A stretch of DNA of 64,000 nucleotides from an uncultured Erysipelotrichaceae bacterium (GTDB lineage: Bacteria > Bacillota_I > Bacilli_A > Erysipelotrichales > Erysipelotrichaceae): NCBI GenBank assembly GCA_947569705.1, contig CANOSP010000008.1, forward strand, positions 1 to 64,000, written 5' to 3'. A program made the translations under genes and the position numbers. Every line of letters begins with the position of its first letter. Positions within the stretch are counted from its first letter, which is position 1. This document shows positions 54,358 through 63,596 of the stretch, one piece after another. The notes under the pieces were generated by a model, which had not been told where the DNA came from, ran no database searches, and saw nothing but the letters and a program-made list of their open reading frames with translations.

Positions 54358-57300
54358 TTATTGTTTCAGAGAATGAGAATATTTGATCAGACAATACAGT
54401 ACACATAATATCATTCCTACATATAAGTTAATATCTGTTTCATCCCCCGTATTTGCCCCGCCGATACTTGTAATCGGGTTATAATAACCTTTTACCGATG
54501 TGTATGGTTCATCAGGATTCTTCGGTGTTGTATCATCTTTAGCAGGTTCTTCAGGCTTTTCAGGTTCTTTGGTGTTACCGAATATCATGGTATCAAATGG
54601 GAATTCGCCGTCTATATTCTTTTCCGGTTTCCATTCGGTTATTTCTTTGAGATTTGCGTCAGGCTTACCATCATCATTCGTGTCTACATTCACATCCGGT
54701 TTGCCGTCTCCGTCACCGTCGATATTCATATCAGGAATGCCATCCCCATCAATATCTACATTTAAATCAGGGACTCCGTCATTATCGAGATCAAGATTAA
54801 GATCAGGGTATCCGTCTCCGTCTGAATCTACATTTAATTCAGGTTTGATGTCTTCCTTATTAATACTGTCGTAAGTAAATGTACCTGAAGAATAATTCTT
54901 ATTCGGTTTCCAGTCATGAATCACAGCGATATTAACGATTGGATTCTTTCCGTCTTTTGAGATATTGATATGTGGTTTGAAATCGCCTTTATTATCAATG
55001 TTGATGTTTGGAATACCATCTCCATCTGTATCAATATTGATTACTGCTTTGACACTTGTTCCTGTACAATATTCTTCCAAAATATTGTTATCAGAATCTG
55101 CTTTGACACACTTCGTTGGCTTCCAATCTGTTTTCTTTAGAATCACTAAATTCAGATCAGGCTTTCCATCATTGTCTGTATCGATATTTAAGTCAGGTTT
55201 TCCATCACCGTCACTATCAATGTTTAAGTCGGGGATACCATCATAATCTCTGTCTCCGTTAATTACGATCCATTTACTTTCATCATTCCGATCTTTCCAT
55301 TTAATGTTTAAATCAGGACATCCATCTCCGTCCGGATCATTGAAGTCAGGTTTCCCATCTCCGTCCACATCGACATCAATTTTCTTCAATTCTACTTCAT
55401 GACAGCTTTCGGTATTTGTATTACCGGCGTTGTCTGTCGGTATCACACATACTTTATACTTTCCGACTGTTTCACTGATCGTAATACTTGCTTTTTCTTT
55501 TGTGACAATCAATTTCCCCTCTTTCATCAGTTCTTCACCTGATCGAGCAAGTGTATCTAACTTATATACCTTATAGCTGATTTCCTTAGTTCCGCTGACT
55601 TTTAAGTCATCTTTCGCATCACTTGTTGTGACTTCAAATGAGGTTCCCGGTTTAAAGAAGATGCCGCCGCTGATTTTATTGATAATATCTTGGAGCTTAT
55701 TGTTTGTATCTTTGGCTTTTATCGTTTTGACCTTTGGTGCAGTTTTATCAATCTTAATGATTTCTTGTTTTTCCTTTGTGATTGCGCCACTGTCCTTTTT
55801 CATCCAAAAGCTTTGGTTTATTTCGCCTTCTTTTGTGACTGTGACTTGGTTTGGTTTCCATGTGCTTTGATCAAGAGACAAGTTGATATATTCATTGTGA
55901 TCACTGATGATATTAACTGCTTGATTCGTCCACTTGCCTTCATATGCAGTGTTATTTCCGTCATTGATTTCTAAATGATACCAGTCATCTTCAATGTTTT
56001 CTTCCTTAATGGTGAGTGTTCCCTCTTTAAACTTAAAACTATAATTCGGATAAGTCTTGTTTAAAGTATTCGCATCTCCCTTGATCAGATAGTTCCCTGC
56101 ATTACTGTTGGTTTTCGCTGTCGTGCTTAGCTTAATATCATTGGCTTGGATTACATCCTGTACTCCGTTCCATGTGACTAATTGATTCTTAAAATCTTGA
56201 TAGGTTAATGGTGGATTTTGTTCTCCTTTAAGTTTCTCTTTGTCATCAATCGTTATTGTGATGCTTTTCGGCAATACTGTGACTTGCACTTTTTTACTTA
56301 ACGGTGATTCTCCGTCTGCCGTTCTTGTCACTGTGATTGTCGTTTTCGTTGTGCCGCTGTATTTCAATGCATCAAACTCAGCGATATTACCGTTTACCGT
56401 CGGATTTGATACATATGTTGTATCATCAATCTCAAAGGTGTATTGCACATTCGTACTGTCCGCATCGAATTGTGTACTCTTGATTGTAAAGTGATCGCCA
56501 TACATGATCTTACCCGGACTTGTGATTGCCAGTACATTCTCATCAGGTCCCATGATATGAATCGTTCCGTCAGCTTCCGCTACTTTGTAGTTTCGATCCA
56601 TTGGCTTCGTCGCATGGATCTTTATGTCTTTCGGACTTGATTCTGTATAATCATATTCGATTGTTTTATTGTCATTCGTCCATGCGATAGAGCCATCTTC
56701 GTTACTGTCTACCTCAATTAATATATCCCCTGATGTATCGACAACGCCGTCTACTTCAACCACCGGTGCGACACTTCCGCTCCCGTTCACTACATAGATC
56801 GGATCATCTGCGAATGTAATTACTCTTGTGCCTTTATCAATATTGATTGGTAATTCGATTATCTTATCTGCATAATTTCCTGTAGGATCATGACTCGTTG
56901 CCTGTACGATTACCTTTCCCATTTGGCTGTTTTGACTCGCATTCAGAATCGTCACTAAACCGCTTGCATCTACCGAGATCACATCAGTGGGACTTCCTGC
57001 TTTCAGTTGATAGCTTACTGTGCTTCCGGTTGGGTTTCCTGCCGTATATAATTGGAACGTCTTGTTTGGATCATAAACTTCTTTTTTGGCACTGTAATTA
57101 CTTCCCGATTTCGGAAGTTCATTTCCGGCATTGTCCGTATAAATGAAGTTTTGCGCTCCTGCCGTTACTGTAAAAGTTAGTTCTGCATAAGCATCTGCTT
57201 GTCCTGCGGCTCCTTGTTTCTCTGCCACAATCGTTACTGTTCCGACTCCGTGGATTGTGACTGCTCCACTGTTTTCATTGATTTCTATTACATTCGTTGA

Positions 57301-59664
57301 TCCATCTTTAATTTTGTATTTCACCGGATTCGTATTCGTACTACCCTTTACACATGCAAATACTGCGACATTTGTATCCGTTACCTTGACACTTTTTGAA
57401 ATGATCATATTGATTGCCGCACTTGTTTCATAAAACTGCAGATTTTCAGCTCCCGCTACTCCGACATTCACTGTCACCGCTATATCCTTACTGCTCCATT
57501 TGTCAGATACCTTTATCACAAAATGATAGCTTCCTACTCCTAATTGAGAGCCTGCCTTTACCTTGATCGTTCCGACATTCCCGCTTGTCGTTATCTGAAA
57601 CATTCCCGAATCCTGTCCATTCACAAGCTCATAGCTGTAGGTCGTGGTTGATCCGCCGATCATATCCGGTGTTCCTTCATTTCCCGTAATCGTTCCGATG
57701 ACTCCGTTTTCCATTACATTCGTTTGACTTGCGGTAAAGGTCGGAACACTTGTGTCGCTTGAAGCACTATCAGGTGTCAGTGTCGCATTCACTCCGCGAT
57801 AGATAACTATTTCCTTTTCTACATAAGCCGGATTATAATTATCTAATCCTGTACTCGGATCATCATCCGCCGTTGCCCGTATCGTCACCTTATTAAACGC
57901 ATTGTTTCCGTTATACGTGATTTCTCCTGTATCGGGATCTATTTCTATTAACGCTGAATAACCGCCTGATTTTGAATACGTTATCTTTGTCCCTGTACTT
58001 GGATTCGCTGTCGCTGTTTCACTCCAAGCTGTTGCCGCATCTGTCATTGATTTCTTTGTCTGTGCCGGATCATTGAATGCGACAGATAAATCTGTTTTTT
58101 CTACCATAAACGATGTACAAACCTTAGTATCAGCTGTAGTTGTTGCAGGATCACCGTTTGCATCCTTAGCACTTACACAAAATTTATAAGTTCCTGCTTT
58201 TAATCCACCGTTCAATAAATCAGGCGCATTATTTTTTATCTTTACTTTCAGTGTAGTGCTGCTTGAAGCACTACTGCTGTTTAATCCGTCAATTTCAAAG
58301 TTTTGATAAGAATTATCTCCGTTTGATTCCATTGCATAAGTTAATGGCATAACCCCTTGAGGATTCACTGAAATGTTTCCTATTATCTGTCCCGCATTCA
58401 CATTCTTACTAAACTCATAATCTTTTCCGCTGCTCGCTCCGCTTTGCGGCTGTTTTGTATAGCTGATTTTATGTTTGGTAATTTCAAACGGTATCGCATT
58501 TGAAAGCGGGGAAGAATAAACCGGTGCAGCATCGGTGGTATACTCCTCGTTCACCAAGTATGCTTGGTATTTTCCGATGGGAATATTACCGGTATCAAAA
58601 CTAATAATACCTGAACTAGCAGCTGATTCTAATGGTTCATAGTATTTTAATTCACTCCCCGATGTATCTGATAATAACAATGATATAGTATTGGTATTCC
58701 CTACGGTTGCGTTATCATAATGTATTTTAACTACAGAACCTTTCATGACTTTTTGGACAGAATCATTGTTGGCATTCTTAATATCATTAAAATCAACGTT
58801 CATAGCATCAGGATTCAACAATCTTATTTTCATCGGATCACCGGCTGTATTCCAAATATTTGTTGTATTGGCAACCGGATTCGTAATACTGGCTGTATAA
58901 TTACTGCCTGTGCCGGTGGATAAAGCAAAAACTACATCACCTAAATTCAACTTGGCACTCGCTCTCAATGCTAATTGTTTCGTTTGTACATTTTGTATGG
59001 CTGCAGCACCTGTTGCACCAATAAAAGAAATCCAATTAGGTTTTGAAACAGAACCGTTTCCTGCCCAATAATCACGATCATATTTTAACAAAAACACTTC
59101 TTGACTGTTAATCAGCTGATAGCTCATACCATCAGCATTAAATTGTGTTTCCGGCATGGTTAAACACCAAAAGCGATTCTCTGCCATATAAGGCTGTAGG
59201 TAGTCCAGAGCAATGACATTTGAATTTTGTTCTAATGTTGTATAAGGAGTACGCTCTACAATCATGGCTTCATCTTTACTACCTGAAACAATATTATTAT
59301 TTAATGTCGCATAATAATTTTTTAACAAACTTTTAGAATAGTTATGTGTAAAATTAGTCCATTCTGAATCATTATACGTATACGGAGTCACAGCATTCTC
59401 AAAATGCTTGCTCATTGTAAGCCACACATTGTTTCCATCGCTGTTAGGATTTGATTTCAATAACTGCATTTCTAAGTTAATACCGTTATATTTTGTTCCC
59501 ATATAAATTCGATCACCTTGTTTTAAATGACCGATTCTGCCGGTTGAATTTGATGAAACTGCATACGATCCGGCAGCATTCATTTGATAAAAACTATAAC
59601 CATATGCAGATGTTATAGCTATAATGATTAAAGCAAATACAGATATTGCCGCTTTTTTCCACAT
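54358..59664 (-). CDS. Giant surface protein with Ig-like and calcium-type repeats
   Basis: A 1768-residue exported protein. N-terminal hydrophobic segment (about 5-27); N-terminal module (about 30-280); a large series of beta-rich Ig/cadherin-like and MBG-like modules (about 385-1220); a further beta region (1220-1425); a tract of Asp-rich DxDGDGxPDxN units (about 1428-1675); then GGANTGDE (about 1735-1742), a membrane helix and a short tail SLKQ. The Cys-containing motif KFCVSAKDANGDP (about 495) and the first 500 residues are shared with the gene at the left edge. AAAGGA lies about 12 bases before the ATG. Possible roles are adhesion or surface layer; calcium is likely needed for folding. 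The nearby sigma factor at 60052 may control it. Confidence 0.85.
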   Translation of the reverse strand: MWKKAAISVFALIIIAITSAYGYSFYQMNAAGSYAVSSNSTGRIGHLKQGDRIYMGTKYNGINLEMQLLKSNPNSDGNNVWLTMSKHFENAVTPYTYNDSEWTNFTHNYSKSLLKNYYATLNNNIVSGSKDEAMIVERTPYTTLEQNSNVIALDYLQPYMAENRFWCLTMPETQFNADGMSYQLINSQEVFLLKYDRDYWAGNGSVSKPNWISFIGATGAAAIQNVQTKQLALRASAKLNLGDVVFALSTGTGSNYTASITNPVANTTNIWNTAGDPMKIRLLNPDAMNVDFNDIKNANNDSVQKVMKGSVVKIHYDNATVGNTNTISLLLSDTSGSELKYYEPLESAASSGIISFDTGNIPIGKYQAYLVNEEYTTDAAPVYSSPLSNAIPFEITKHKISYTKQPQSGASSGKDYEFSKNVNAGQIIGNISVNPQGVMPLTYAMESNGDNSYQNFEIDGLNSSSASSSTTLKVKIKNNAPDLLNGGLKAGTYKFCVSAKDANGDPATTTADTKVCTSFMVEKTDLSVAFNDPAQTKKSMTDAATAWSETATANPSTGTKITYSKSGGYSALIEIDPDTGEITYNGNNAFNKVTIRATADDDPSTGLDNYNPAYVEKEIVIYRGVNATLTPDSASSDTSVPTFTASQTNVMENGVIGTITGNEGTPDMIGGSTTTYSYELVNGQDSGMFQITTSGNVGTIKVKAGSQLGVGSYHFVIKVSDKWSSKDIAVTVNVGVAGAENLQFYETSAAINMIISKSVKVTDTNVAVFACVKGSTNTNPVKYKIKDGSTNVIEINENSGAVTIHGVGTVTIVAEKQGAAGQADAYAELTFTVTAGAQNFIYTDNAGNELPKSGSNYSAKKEVYDPNKTFQLYTAGNPTGSTVSYQLKAGSPTDVISVDASGLVTILNASQNSQMGKVIVQATSHDPTGNYADKIIELPINIDKGTRVITFADDPIYVVNGSGSVAPVVEVDGVVDTSGDILIEVDSNEDGSIAWTNDNKTIEYDYTESSPKDIKIHATKPMDRNYKVAEADGTIHIMGPDENVLAITSPGKIMYGDHFTIKSTQFDADSTNVQYTFEIDDTTYVSNPTVNGNIAEFDALKYSGTTKTTITVTRTADGESPLSKKVQVTVLPKSITITIDDKEKLKGEQNPPLTYQDFKNQLVTWNGVQDVIQANDIKLSTTAKTNSNAGNYLIKGDANTLNKTYPNYSFKFKEGTLTIKEENIEDDWYHLEINDGNNTAYEGKWTNQAVNIISDHNEYINLSLDQSTWKPNQVTVTKEGEINQSFWMKKDSGAITKEKQEIIKIDKTAPKVKTIKAKDTNNKLQDIINKISGGIFFKPGTSFEVTTSDAKDDLKVSGTKEISYKVYKLDTLARSGEELMKEGKLIVTKEKASITISETVGKYKVCVIPTDNAGNTNTESCHEVELKKIDVDVDGDGKPDFNDPDGDGCPDLNIKWKDRNDESKWIVINGDRDYDGIPDLNIDSDGDGKPDLNIDTDNDGKPDLNLVILKKTDWKPTKCVKADSDNNILEEYCTGTSVKAVINIDTDGDGIPNINIDNKGDFKPHINISKDGKNPIVNIAVIHDWKPNKNYSSGTFTYDSINKEDIKPELNVDSDGDGYPDLNLDLDNDGVPDLNVDIDGDGIPDMNIDGDGDGKPDVNVDTNDDGKPDANLKEITEWKPEKNIDGEFPFDTMIFGNTKEPEKPEEPAKDDTTPKNPDEPYTSVKGYYNPITSIGGANTGDETDINLYVGMILCVLYCLIKYSHSLKQ
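54640..55385 (-). repeat. Asp-rich calcium-type tandem repeats (coding)
   Basis: About fourteen units of the form D-x-D-G-D-G-x-P-D-x-N, separated in places by WKP-containing spacers. They resemble thrombospondin type 3 or dockerin-like calcium loops. At DNA level the units are similar (GATGGAGACGG-type cores), so expansion or contraction by recombination is possible. Confidence 0.8.
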
Positions 59665-60051: not shown

Positions 60052-61041
60052 TTAAAAAGCCTGATTCCAATAATGCTCTAAAAGCACATAATATAAATTT
60101 CCTTGTTGTTTCAACTGCTCATATAAAGGTCTCATTGCCGCCTTTTCCGTTTCACTTTTTTCACTTAATTCCTCTTCACAATGAGCCCATTGCTTTAAAA
60201 CCCGATAAGCATCCTTAGCGTCAAAAGCCGCATCTTTTTCATAAGTTTGATAATCGGAGTTAAAGAAATGATCGCGTACAATCACCGAGCCAAACACTAA
60301 GCTTGCCGCAAGGCTGACGGTGATCCCTGCCTTTAAAAAGAGCGTTGTATTAAGAACCGGAAAATGACTGAATAAAGAAGAAAATGTCTCTATACCCTTC
60401 TTTTTATCACACATTACCCACGCAGCACATATAGTTCCCAACTGATTGATACGGAAGTTCAATTTAACATCATTGCGGCGACAGTATTCTTCCACATCGG
60501 CACGCAACAGCTTTTTGGCATTTGCCAAACGACTTTTTACGGTTCCGTTAGGTACATTTAAAAGCTGTGCAATCTCATCAATCGACATCTGCGCAAAATA
60601 TTTCAAAGAGATCACTTCACGCTGTTCATCACTCAGCCGCAACATACAGGCTTGTAAAACCTCCATATCACTGCGATAATGCATATTCGCTTCAGGCAGA
60701 AATTCTCGCCGTTTTTCTGTTTGAACATTTAATTGATCCAGCTTTGCATCATCCATTGCCTTATCTTTGTTTGAACGAAACAAACGTTTGCACTCATTAT
60801 GGGTAATTGAAACCAACCAATATTTAAAACGACTGCTGTCCTTAATATCAATCGCATAGCGAAGCACCTTTAAAAAGACCTCTTGCTTGATTTCTTCCGC
60901 ATCGGCTTCACATTTTGTGATCTGATATGCGATATAATACACAAGCTTATGGTATCGGTCATACAATTCATTAAAGGCTGATTCATCCTGCATTCTCAAT
61001 AATCTGATTAATTCAGCGTCATTTCGTTTTTTTGTGTTCAC
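60052..61041 (-). CDS. ECF sigma factor fused to a membrane and extracytoplasmic domain
   Basis: A 329-residue protein. Residues about 10-90 are sigma region 2 (FNELYDRYHKLVYYIAYQ; later EEIKQEVFLKV) and about 125-185 are region 4, with the helix-turn-helix SIDEIAQLLNVPNGTVKSRL. Then comes a linker (about 190-230), one membrane helix (about 230-255, TLFLKAGITVSLAASLVFGS) and about 70 residues outside the membrane. Typical ECF factors end after region 4 (about 170-190), so this is a fusion that may sense signals directly. GAGGTG lies 6 bases before the GTG start at 61041; an in-frame GTG nine bases earlier overlaps that site. No separate anti-sigma gene is adjacent. Confidence 0.88.
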   Translation of the reverse strand: MNTKKRNDAELIRLLRMQDESAFNELYDRYHKLVYYIAYQITKCEADAEEIKQEVFLKVLRYAIDIKDSSRFKYWLVSITHNECKRLFRSNKDKAMDDAKLDQLNVQTEKRREFLPEANMHYRSDMEVLQACMLRLSDEQREVISLKYFAQMSIDEIAQLLNVPNGTVKSRLANAKKLLRADVEEYCRRNDVKLNFRINQLGTICAAWVMCDKKKGIETFSSLFSHFPVLNTTLFLKAGITVSLAASLVFGSVIVRDHFFNSDYQTYEKDAAFDAKDAYRVLKQWAHCEEELSEKSETEKAAMRPLYEQLKQQGNLYYVLLEHYWNQAF

Positions 61042-61061
61042 GGCTTCCACCTCTTTTTTTA

Positions 61062-61346: not shown

Positions 61347-61538
61347 TTAAATCACCTCAAAGCCATGTTCGGAAATCATCTGTTTGGCTTTTCTGATCAC
61401 ATCATTATCGCCGTCCACAAGCACAACGCTTTGTGATAAACGAATTTCATGACGGATACCGGCATTGTCCAGTACATATGCCAAAGTCTTTACTCTTTCT
61501 TCATTTAACAAATCCTTTACCATGATTATACTAGTCAT
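61347..61538 (-). CDS. Small ferredoxin-fold (HMA-like) protein, 63 aa
   Basis: A 63-residue protein with a beta-alpha-beta-beta-alpha-beta pattern, as in heavy-metal-associated (HMA) domains or small ACT-like domains: strand near 2-8, helix 12-27, strands near 29-44, helix 47-58, end strand. It has no CxxC, so metal binding like CopZ is not expected. GTGAGGA lies 8 bases upstream of the ATG. It stands alone with its own terminator. The function is unknown; it could be a regulatory ligand-binding domain. Confidence 0.65.
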   Translation of the reverse strand: MTSIIMVKDLLNEERVKTLAYVLDNAGIRHEIRLSQSVVLVDGDNDVIRKAKQMISEHGFEVI

Positions 61539-61776: not shown

Positions 61777-61796
61777 AAAAAAGCCCGCTTGCGGGC
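61777..61796 (-). terminator. Terminator of the aspartokinase operon
   Basis: GCCCG and CGGGC (61783-61796) with a 4-base loop, followed by six T residues on the minus strand, 9 bases after the stop codon. Confidence 0.85.
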
Positions 61797-61804
61797 GTAT
61801 TCGT

Positions 61805-62812
61805 TTACTCTTTTTCAATAAAATTATGAATTACATAAAAAGCTGTTTTCACCGCAATACCACAGCGCAGTGCGAGATCATCGCATACTGCCCACATCGC
61901 AAAGGTATGCGGATCACTGCGGCGCATTCTGCCGATATAAATACGATAATCATGAATGACATCGGCACAAATCGGATACATATTGTGAGTAATATCATCA
62001 AAACAGATCATATTGGGATCTTGACTGAATACATCTGTTAAAGCCTCAGGATCCACTTCCTCATCACATAAAAAGGCTAGGCTCATCGATAATCCGCGAA
62101 GTCCGGCTACCCGTACACAGGTTGCGCATATATCGCAATCCGTATCAAACAGCTGTTTAAGATACGTCTGTAAGCGCAATTCCTCTTGACTGCTTCCGCC
62201 GTCACAGAAATCAGAGGTCTGCGGGATTGTTTGGAACAACAACGGTAAATGCTGATAAGCATCTTTCAGCGGAAATAATTCCGATTCCGGCTCCTGCCCC
62301 GCAACATAAGCTTTCAGTTGCTCCATCAGATCCTTACAGCCCTCATCGCCGACTTCCGCTACACTGTGAAGTGAAGTCAATACGCCCTTGCGCAGTGTAT
62401 GTTTTTGTTTCAGTGCCGCAAAGATCATCACTGCCATCGCAAACGCTGCCGTCGGGATACGCAAATTGTGATCCTTTATCGTAAGCTGATCCAAATTCAC
62501 GGAAGGAAGCACCAGTTTACCGACTTTCTCACAGCCGCATAAGCGGATAATCCACATTTGTTCCTGCTTCTCTTGCGGAATCAGCTGATCCGCTTTGCCG
62601 ATACAGTCAAACAGAACCGTACACGTGAAAAGTCGCTCATCATTCAAACGATGAACCGGATAATATTGATCTTGATATTCAAAAGTCCTGCCGCATTCTT
62701 CATTCTCATCAAATAATACGATATTATATGGAAAACGCCATTTTTTCAGCCACTTTGCCAATTCTCTCGCCAACCATGTAGAAGCCCCGATTATACCGGC
62801 TTGATTATTCAT
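61805..62812 (-). CDS. Aspartate-semialdehyde dehydrogenase-like pseudoenzyme
   Basis: A 335-residue homologue of Asd, the enzyme that reduces aspartyl phosphate to the semialdehyde. The fold is recognisable from blocks such as KLVLPSVN (about 99), TCVRVAGLRGLS (about 232), NMYPI and YIGRMRRSDP with MWAVCDDL in the C-terminal part. But the catalytic NCST motif is replaced: the position of Cys aligns with Ala-122 in RIPTAAF. The active-site His of the usual GHS becomes Leu (GLS). The N-terminal nucleotide loop GATGAVG is GASTWLA. It is therefore probably catalytically dead, perhaps a regulator or scaffold. It starts 4 bases after the aspartokinase gene. AAGGGTG is the ribosome binding site. 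Confidence 0.75.
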   Translation of the reverse strand: MNNQAGIIGASTWLARELAKWLKKWRFPYNIVLFDENEECGRTFEYQDQYYPVHRLNDERLFTCTVLFDCIGKADQLIPQEKQEQMWIIRLCGCEKVGKLVLPSVNLDQLTIKDHNLRIPTAAFAMAVMIFAALKQKHTLRKGVLTSLHSVAEVGDEGCKDLMEQLKAYVAGQEPESELFPLKDAYQHLPLLFQTIPQTSDFCDGGSSQEELRLQTYLKQLFDTDCDICATCVRVAGLRGLSMSLAFLCDEEVDPEALTDVFSQDPNMICFDDITHNMYPICADVIHDYRIYIGRMRRSDPHTFAMWAVCDDLALRCGIAVKTAFYVIHNFIEKE

Positions 62813-62816
62813 ACTT

Positions 62817-63539
62817 TCACCCTTCTATTACCGTACCTGAATGATTGGAAAATGTACCCTTTAGATAAATTTTAATTCCATGCTTCTTCGCAAAAATCAC
62901 ACTGCGATCATGTAATACACGACTTTTCATATTCAACATTTCATCGTATGTCAGACGATCATAGCGAACTGCATATTCATTCAGTTTCGGATCGCGATCA
63001 TATACGCCGTCGACATCGGTATAAATATCCACTTCCTTTAATTTCAGCATATGAGCAAATAAAACAGCACTGTAATCACTGCCCCCTCTGCCCAAAGTGG
63101 TTACCTTATGCTCATAGGAAGTTCCGATAAAACCGCCGACTACAATAACATCATATTCATTTAATTTCATTTTTATTTCTTTATTATCCAGTTTTATCAC
63201 TTTTGCATATTCATAATTATTATCGGTTCTGATTCCGCTGTCTATAAAATTTAAGGAAAATGCACGAACCCCTTGATCCAAAAGCTCGCTGCATACTTTA
63301 ATTGCGGAAAGCTGTTCTCCGATCGAAACAAGCTTTGCCCTCTCTTCCTTGCTTAAAAATTCACTTCCCATAGCCAGCAGTGTATCGGTCGCATAAGCAT
63401 CCGGATATCGTCCCATAGCCGATACTACTACCACAACCTTTGAAGTCTGTGCAGCTTCCATGATATGGCGATACGCATATTTTCGTGTTGCCTCGCTGCG
63501 CAGGGAAGTTCCGCCGAATTTCATGACTTTGATATCCAT
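62817..63539 (-). CDS. lysC: Aspartokinase, catalytic domain only (no ACT)
   Basis: A 240-residue aspartate kinase that makes aspartyl phosphate, first step to lysine, threonine and methionine. The amino-acid kinase motifs are intact: KFGGTS (about 7), SIGEQLSA (about 88), TTLGRGGSDYSA (about 152) and YTDVDGVYDRDP (about 177). The protein ends just after the catalytic domain (LKGTFSNHSGT), where normal aspartokinases continue with about 150 residues of ACT domains for feedback control. No frameshift remnant of ACT is visible before the next gene. The ATG at 63539 has GGAGG 7 bases upstream. It forms an operon with the Asd-like gene. Confidence 0.88.
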   Translation of the reverse strand: MDIKVMKFGGTSLRSEATRKYAYRHIMEAAQTSKVVVVVSAMGRYPDAYATDTLLAMGSEFLSKEERAKLVSIGEQLSAIKVCSELLDQGVRAFSLNFIDSGIRTDNNYEYAKVIKLDNKEIKMKLNEYDVIVVGGFIGTSYEHKVTTLGRGGSDYSAVLFAHMLKLKEVDIYTDVDGVYDRDPKLNEYAVRYDRLTYDEMLNMKSRVLHDRSVIFAKKHGIKIYLKGTFSNHSGTVIEG

Positions 63540-63596
63540 GATCATACCTCCACATTCTCCATAACGTATGCAAAAAAGGTAAAAACGTGTAGGCAC

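Follow-up and report, generated by a model that had tools for sequence, protein, structure and literature searches.

The window, by which we mean the whole stretch of 64,000 nucleotides analysed here, derives from an uncultured Erysipelotrichaceae bacterium and carries a compact two-gene unit on its reverse strand (Table 1). The first gene encodes an aspartokinase (AK) that lacks an ACT domain. The second, which follows the AK stop codon after a gap of 4 nt, exactly as a preliminary description of this DNA had proposed, encodes a protein of the Asd family in which key catalytic residues have been replaced.

Table 1. Elements of the two-gene unit and genes downstream of it, with positions in the window
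Feature	Position	Strand	Length	Remarks
Putative mother-cell-sigma-like promoter, AC-N16-CATACGTTA	63562..63588	(-)		22 nt upstream of the AK start
Predicted ACT-less aspartokinase	62817..63539	(-)	240 aa	ATG at 63539; KFGGTS, GE.LS, GRGGSD and TDVDGVYDRDP intact
Junction, GAAGGGTGA-nnnn-(ATG)	62813..62825	(-)		last AK codons double as Shine-Dalgarno sequence of the Asd-like gene; 7 of 7 genomes
Asd-like protein, probable pseudoenzyme	61805..62812	(-)	335 aa	Cys replaced by Ala122, His by Leu241; altered Rossmann loop
Intrinsic terminator	61783..61796	(-)		just past the Asd-like stop codon; closes the two-gene unit
HMA-like (ferredoxin-fold family) protein	61347-61538	(-)	63 aa	downstream of the Asd-like gene
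ECF sigma factor	60052-61050	(-)	332 aa	
Surface-type repeat protein	54358-59664	(-)	1768 aa	

Aspartokinase is a textbook example of an ACT-regulated enzyme. The protein encoded in the window stops at residue 240, where the catalytic domain ends, and Pfam recognises AA_kinase as its sole domain (E=9e-39) and detects no ACT domain, in agreement with the initial claim that the kinase terminates directly after its catalytic portion. Among whole-family models, the DapG-like PRK08210 fits best; the match spans model positions 1-246 of 405, and thus the part missing from the protein is exactly the ACT region. For the same reason, the matches to both PRK08210 and TIGR00656 score under the whole-protein cut-offs. 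The catalytic motifs align with those of solved aspartokinases and are invariant among relatives, 33 of which share this length class without ACT. Given the AA_kinase domain and these motifs, we count the protein as an aspartokinase that is predicted to phosphorylate aspartate. A search upstream of the gene for a lysine riboswitch found none.

Pfam assigns the Asd-like protein to PF02774 (E=1.4e-14), while its N-terminal NAD-binding domain (PF01118) yields a marginal match (E=0.1) that is not over the cut-off. A profile comparison with 25 canonical Asd sequences from this order leaves no doubt about the relationship (E 4e-44). Six sequences were used to build an AF2 model, which reaches moderate confidence (pLDDT 74, pTM 0.77), has low-confidence stretches at residues 151-203 and 274-285, and adopts an Asd fold along its whole length (Foldseek E 8e-22; Z 30 to 2qz9). 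On the basis of PF02774 and the comparison of this model with Asd structures, the protein is predicted to belong to the Asd superfamily fold, with its Rossmann and dimerisation architecture. It therefore resembles bacterial Asd in overall fold, including the C-terminal dimerisation domain, but differs from it in having lost the catalytic Cys and His, a conserved Arg and the Rossmann glycines.

The alignment with the 25 canonical sequences locates these losses. The catalytic Cys (NPNC(S/T)T) corresponds to Ala122 and the active-site His to Leu241, the active-site Gln has become His149, the NADP loop GATGAVG reads GASTWLA, and the DNSSAYR motif has lost its conserved Arg. The protein retains 31 of the 79 positions that are nearly invariant in Asd, mostly in the C-terminal half. 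An altered nucleotide-binding loop had been noted from the start and is borne out here, whereas the accompanying statement that both Cys and His are lost needs to be narrowed. Both are indeed gone in the window, and the Cys is absent throughout its genus, but the most distant homologue, which is 34% identical and belongs to a different genus (G033), still has the Cys (IPECST) while lacking the His. The loss of His is thus the universal change, with Leu at this position in all seven Asd-like proteins. Some residues, such as E153, Q187, H276, H287 and D312, occur in every Asd-like protein but not in canonical Asd, and they indicate that the protein is subject to a constraint of its own. An intact canonical Asd is also encoded in the window genome, and one was found in every pair-bearing genome of the genus except G001, which is 66% complete. 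The Asd-like protein is probably an old paralogue without Asd chemistry. USG-1 likewise is an Asd-fold paralogue that shares its genome with a true Asd, and homologues of this type (2hjs) are comparable in that respect. We know of no link between them and aspartokinase, whereas the protein described here has one, and the likeness is one of fold rather than of demonstrated close sequence relation.

The AK and Asd-like genes are paired in seven genomes, namely G033 and all but one of the seven that represent the window genus, with the same junction in each and with the Asd-like reading frame open and full-length throughout. Between close species, dN/dS is 0.05-0.14 for the Asd-like gene and 0.02-0.05 for the kinase gene. 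Given these values and the open frames, the Asd-like gene is neither a chance ORF nor a decaying pseudogene; it is under purifying selection, though evolving faster than the kinase. The suggestion that the two genes form a conserved operon pair, retained by related genomes, is therefore well founded. We infer that the Asd-like protein is translationally coupled with AK and has been kept in one sub-lineage as a structural partner.

In a phylogenetic tree, the Asd-like sequences branch outside the canonical Asds of both the family and its sister family, on a very long branch whose placement is unsure. Because the branch stands apart from the two canonical groups, the idea that the gene arose by recent duplication of the Asd of its genus was considered but found unsupported. 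The branching fits descent from an old AK-asd operon like the intact AK(ACT)-asd operon present in order-mates from the sister family. That operon (L015-L027) shares the gene order and tight spacing of the unit described here, and the kinases are 41-45% identical. However, the kinase there has ACT and the Asd there has both Cys and His.

A survey of 272 genomes of the family, whose members are gut bacteria, revealed ACT-less AKs in 34 genomes from 17 genera, and these form one clade (support 90/91). Amedibacillus dolichus and Longicatena caecimuris are among the species that have such a kinase. An Asd-like neighbour accompanies seven of the 34, and the remaining 27 are without a recognisable one. 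Other genomes with an ACT-less AK share the same synteny, yet the Asd-like gene is not there. Since the ACT-less kinases constitute a single clade and most lack the partner, the Asd-like protein cannot be a general substitute for ACT control, and the original proposal to this effect is not upheld. As a reading of the paired genes themselves, it seems unlikely that the Asd-like protein acts as a regulatory subunit, binding the kinase and taking over feedback control from ACT. The strict operon pairing with coupled translation in seven genomes, the dead catalytic residues and the strong purifying selection would all suit such a subunit. However, ACT loss is common to the whole clade and independent of the pair, ACT-less AKs with 66-73% identity exist without a recognisable Asd-like partner, and conservation is far stronger in the kinase than in its would-be regulator.

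Other genes are found directly after the ACT-less AK in some genera. In genus g62 (L060, L061, L063 and L065), a gene for a protein of ~275-285 aa overlaps the end of the AK gene; its similarity to Asd is register-consistent but weak (E=0.019), with no Pfam match where tested, and it may be a further degraded Asd. In genus g20 (L066, L067 and L171), a different small protein (~91-96 aa) adjoins or overlaps the AK end. Among the papers searched, none gave a direct account of ACT-less aspartokinases or of a pseudo-Asd.

The genomic context of these kinases points to dipicolinate. Among the 34 genomes, which are related and thus not independent, 33 have a match to dpaB (dipicolinate synthase), although these matches score below the NCBIfam cut-off; the exception is a genome that is 66% complete. 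In the loci checked, dpaB adjoins dapA, and in most loci read it sits behind a dpaA-like gene. Eleven genomes have no AK other than the ACT-less one. Homoserine dehydrogenase (Hom) is absent from all 11 but is present in 24 of 24 genomes with an ACT-bearing AK, and DapB is found in two of the 11 and absent in nine. In contrast, dapA and dpaB matches are present in all 11 and a canonical Asd in 10. With Hom and DapB gone, dipicolinate is the known product left; the clearest case is G065, which is assembled as one contig. Five family-mates without a detected ACT-less AK were also inspected, and dpaB is absent in three (G007, G013 and G017) but present in two (G003 and G016), so the reverse association is not proven. 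In the sister family, dpaA-dpaB-AK-dapA operons occur at L167 (G304) and L169 (G313). Pfam finds no ACT in the C-terminal region of their AKs (354-365 aa), which adds a second instance in which ACT loss goes together with dipicolinate genes.

Chance alone would be expected to yield about two matches of the AC-N16-CATACGTTA type in a window, and therefore the weight of the promoter evidence rests on conservation, here among related genomes. In 24 of the 33 ACT-less AK genes, the sequence CATAnnnTA stands at a constant upstream position; dinucleotide shuffles predict 0.8 such cases, and among control genes the box is seen in 28 of 371 (7.5%). A relaxed CATAnnnTR box precedes 29 of the 33, and it is kept in 24 of 28 once near-identical genomes are removed. 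The dinucleotide AC lies 15-17 nt before the CATAnnnTR box in 12 of 24 genes (null mean 3.9, with none of 2000 shuffles as high), and in the same 24 genes ATA at the -35 spacing shows no enrichment over shuffles. In C. difficile, sigma-E and sigma-K promoters have the same -10 box and differ at -35 (ATA versus AC, with AC for sigma-K), and dapG belongs to the sigma-E regulon while dpaAB are under sigma-K (PMC3789822). The dpaA gene in the dipicolinate operon of the window genome is preceded by AC-N16-CATAGTATG. Judged from these patterns, the ACT-less AK genes carry a conserved, putative mother-cell-type promoter of the form AC-N16-CATAnnnTR.

The DapG-type AK of Bacillus subtilis sporulation is encoded in the spoVF operon. 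The AK of the window is like it in its catalytic domain, which is closest to DapG-like PRK08210, and in the ties of ACT-less AKs to dipicolinate genes and a putative mother-cell-type promoter. It is unlike it in having no ACT, in lying outside the dpaAB operon and in being paired with an apparently dead Asd.

On balance, we lean towards the view that the unit is a sporulation operon, in which a feedback-free AK serves dipicolinate synthesis and the Asd-like protein is a retained structural partner. The kinase, judging by its phylogeny and context, would make beta-aspartyl phosphate in the mother cell, and the route would proceed from Asp through Asp-P, the semialdehyde and the DapA product to DpaAB and DPA, with a canonical Asd encoded elsewhere carrying out the reduction step. 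Because the ACT domains have been lost, lysine and threonine would be unable to stop this AK via the usual ACT route. The Asd-like protein would descend from an old Asd that lost its Cys, His and NADP chemistry and was kept as a coupled partner in one sub-lineage, where its most probable role would be to dock the kinase and/or the true Asd, or else to bind the labile acyl phosphate. ACT loss is better explained by dedication to spore dipicolinate than by the Asd-like partner, because of the association with dpaB and dapA, the missing Hom and DapB, and the putative mother-cell-type promoter. On the other side, the kinase of the window genus could feed other products, given that the window genome encodes Hom and DapB as well as a second, ACT-bearing AK and that genus-mates also have Hom and DapB, and the docking role must be set against the persistence of the kinase without an Asd-like protein in most genera. 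A more ambitious version, in which the pseudo-Asd is a non-catalytic subunit that unites the feedback-free AK with the true Asd during sporulation and channels aspartyl phosphate to dipicolinate, is offered tentatively, and we regard it as doubtful.

If the sporulation reading is correct, the ACT-less clade would exemplify a pathway that escapes feedback when its product must accumulate. The clade also offers ready-made unregulated AKs for testing, and a conserved dead Asd beside AK is a clean test case for pathway pseudoenzymes as scaffolds.

It is quite unlikely, in our judgement, that the Asd-like protein has instead diverged while remaining an active dehydrogenase, namely a spore-branch Asd whose chemistry is supplied by other residues or operates only in some lineages. 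There is pathway logic in an AK-Asd operon, and Bacillus subtilis has asd-dapG in spoVF. Moreover, the Cys-retaining protein of G033 is the only PF02774 protein found in that genome and adjoins its only AK, although this genome is 83% complete. The window genus, however, has lost the Cys, the His, the conserved Arg and the Rossmann glycines, and its pair-bearing genomes have a canonical Asd, with the single incomplete exception given above. Residual Asd catalysis in G033 is the remaining alternative.

The ACT-less kinase might also be an ordinary second AK for lysine or threonine supply, its spore link being a coincidence of shared ancestry. The Hom, DapB and ACT-bearing AK of the window genome would accommodate such a role, but we find it rather improbable given that the kinase is kept as the sole AK where Hom and DapB are lacking and dpaB is present, and that its promoter is, by sequence, of mother-cell type. 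The proposal that the Asd-like gene is a decaying, functionless remnant of an AK-asd operon, in line with the intact AK(ACT)-asd operon of order-mates, the absence of the partner from most genera and the perhaps even more degraded g62 gene, is very improbable, since it is already disfavoured by the selection test on full-length frames and by the clade-specific invariant residues that Asd-like proteins share at 34% identity.

The sporulation operon that we favour is followed downstream by the HMA-like gene, which we treat as a syntenic neighbour of the unit. Its product is found in 78 of the 272 family genomes, many of them without an ACT-less AK, and in most genera the gene and the ACT-less AK are found in synteny. 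The metal-binding CxxC is absent in the window and kept in some relatives (for example L045, L052 and L054). We considered whether this protein could be a detached ACT substitute and rejected the idea because the gene lies behind the terminator, has its own promoter-like site and has many carriers without an ACT-less AK. Farther downstream, the ECF sigma factor has an unusually long C-terminal extension with a hydrophobic segment, and the surface-type repeat protein combines repeats rich in Asp (DxDxDG) with a hydrophobic segment in its C-terminal part.
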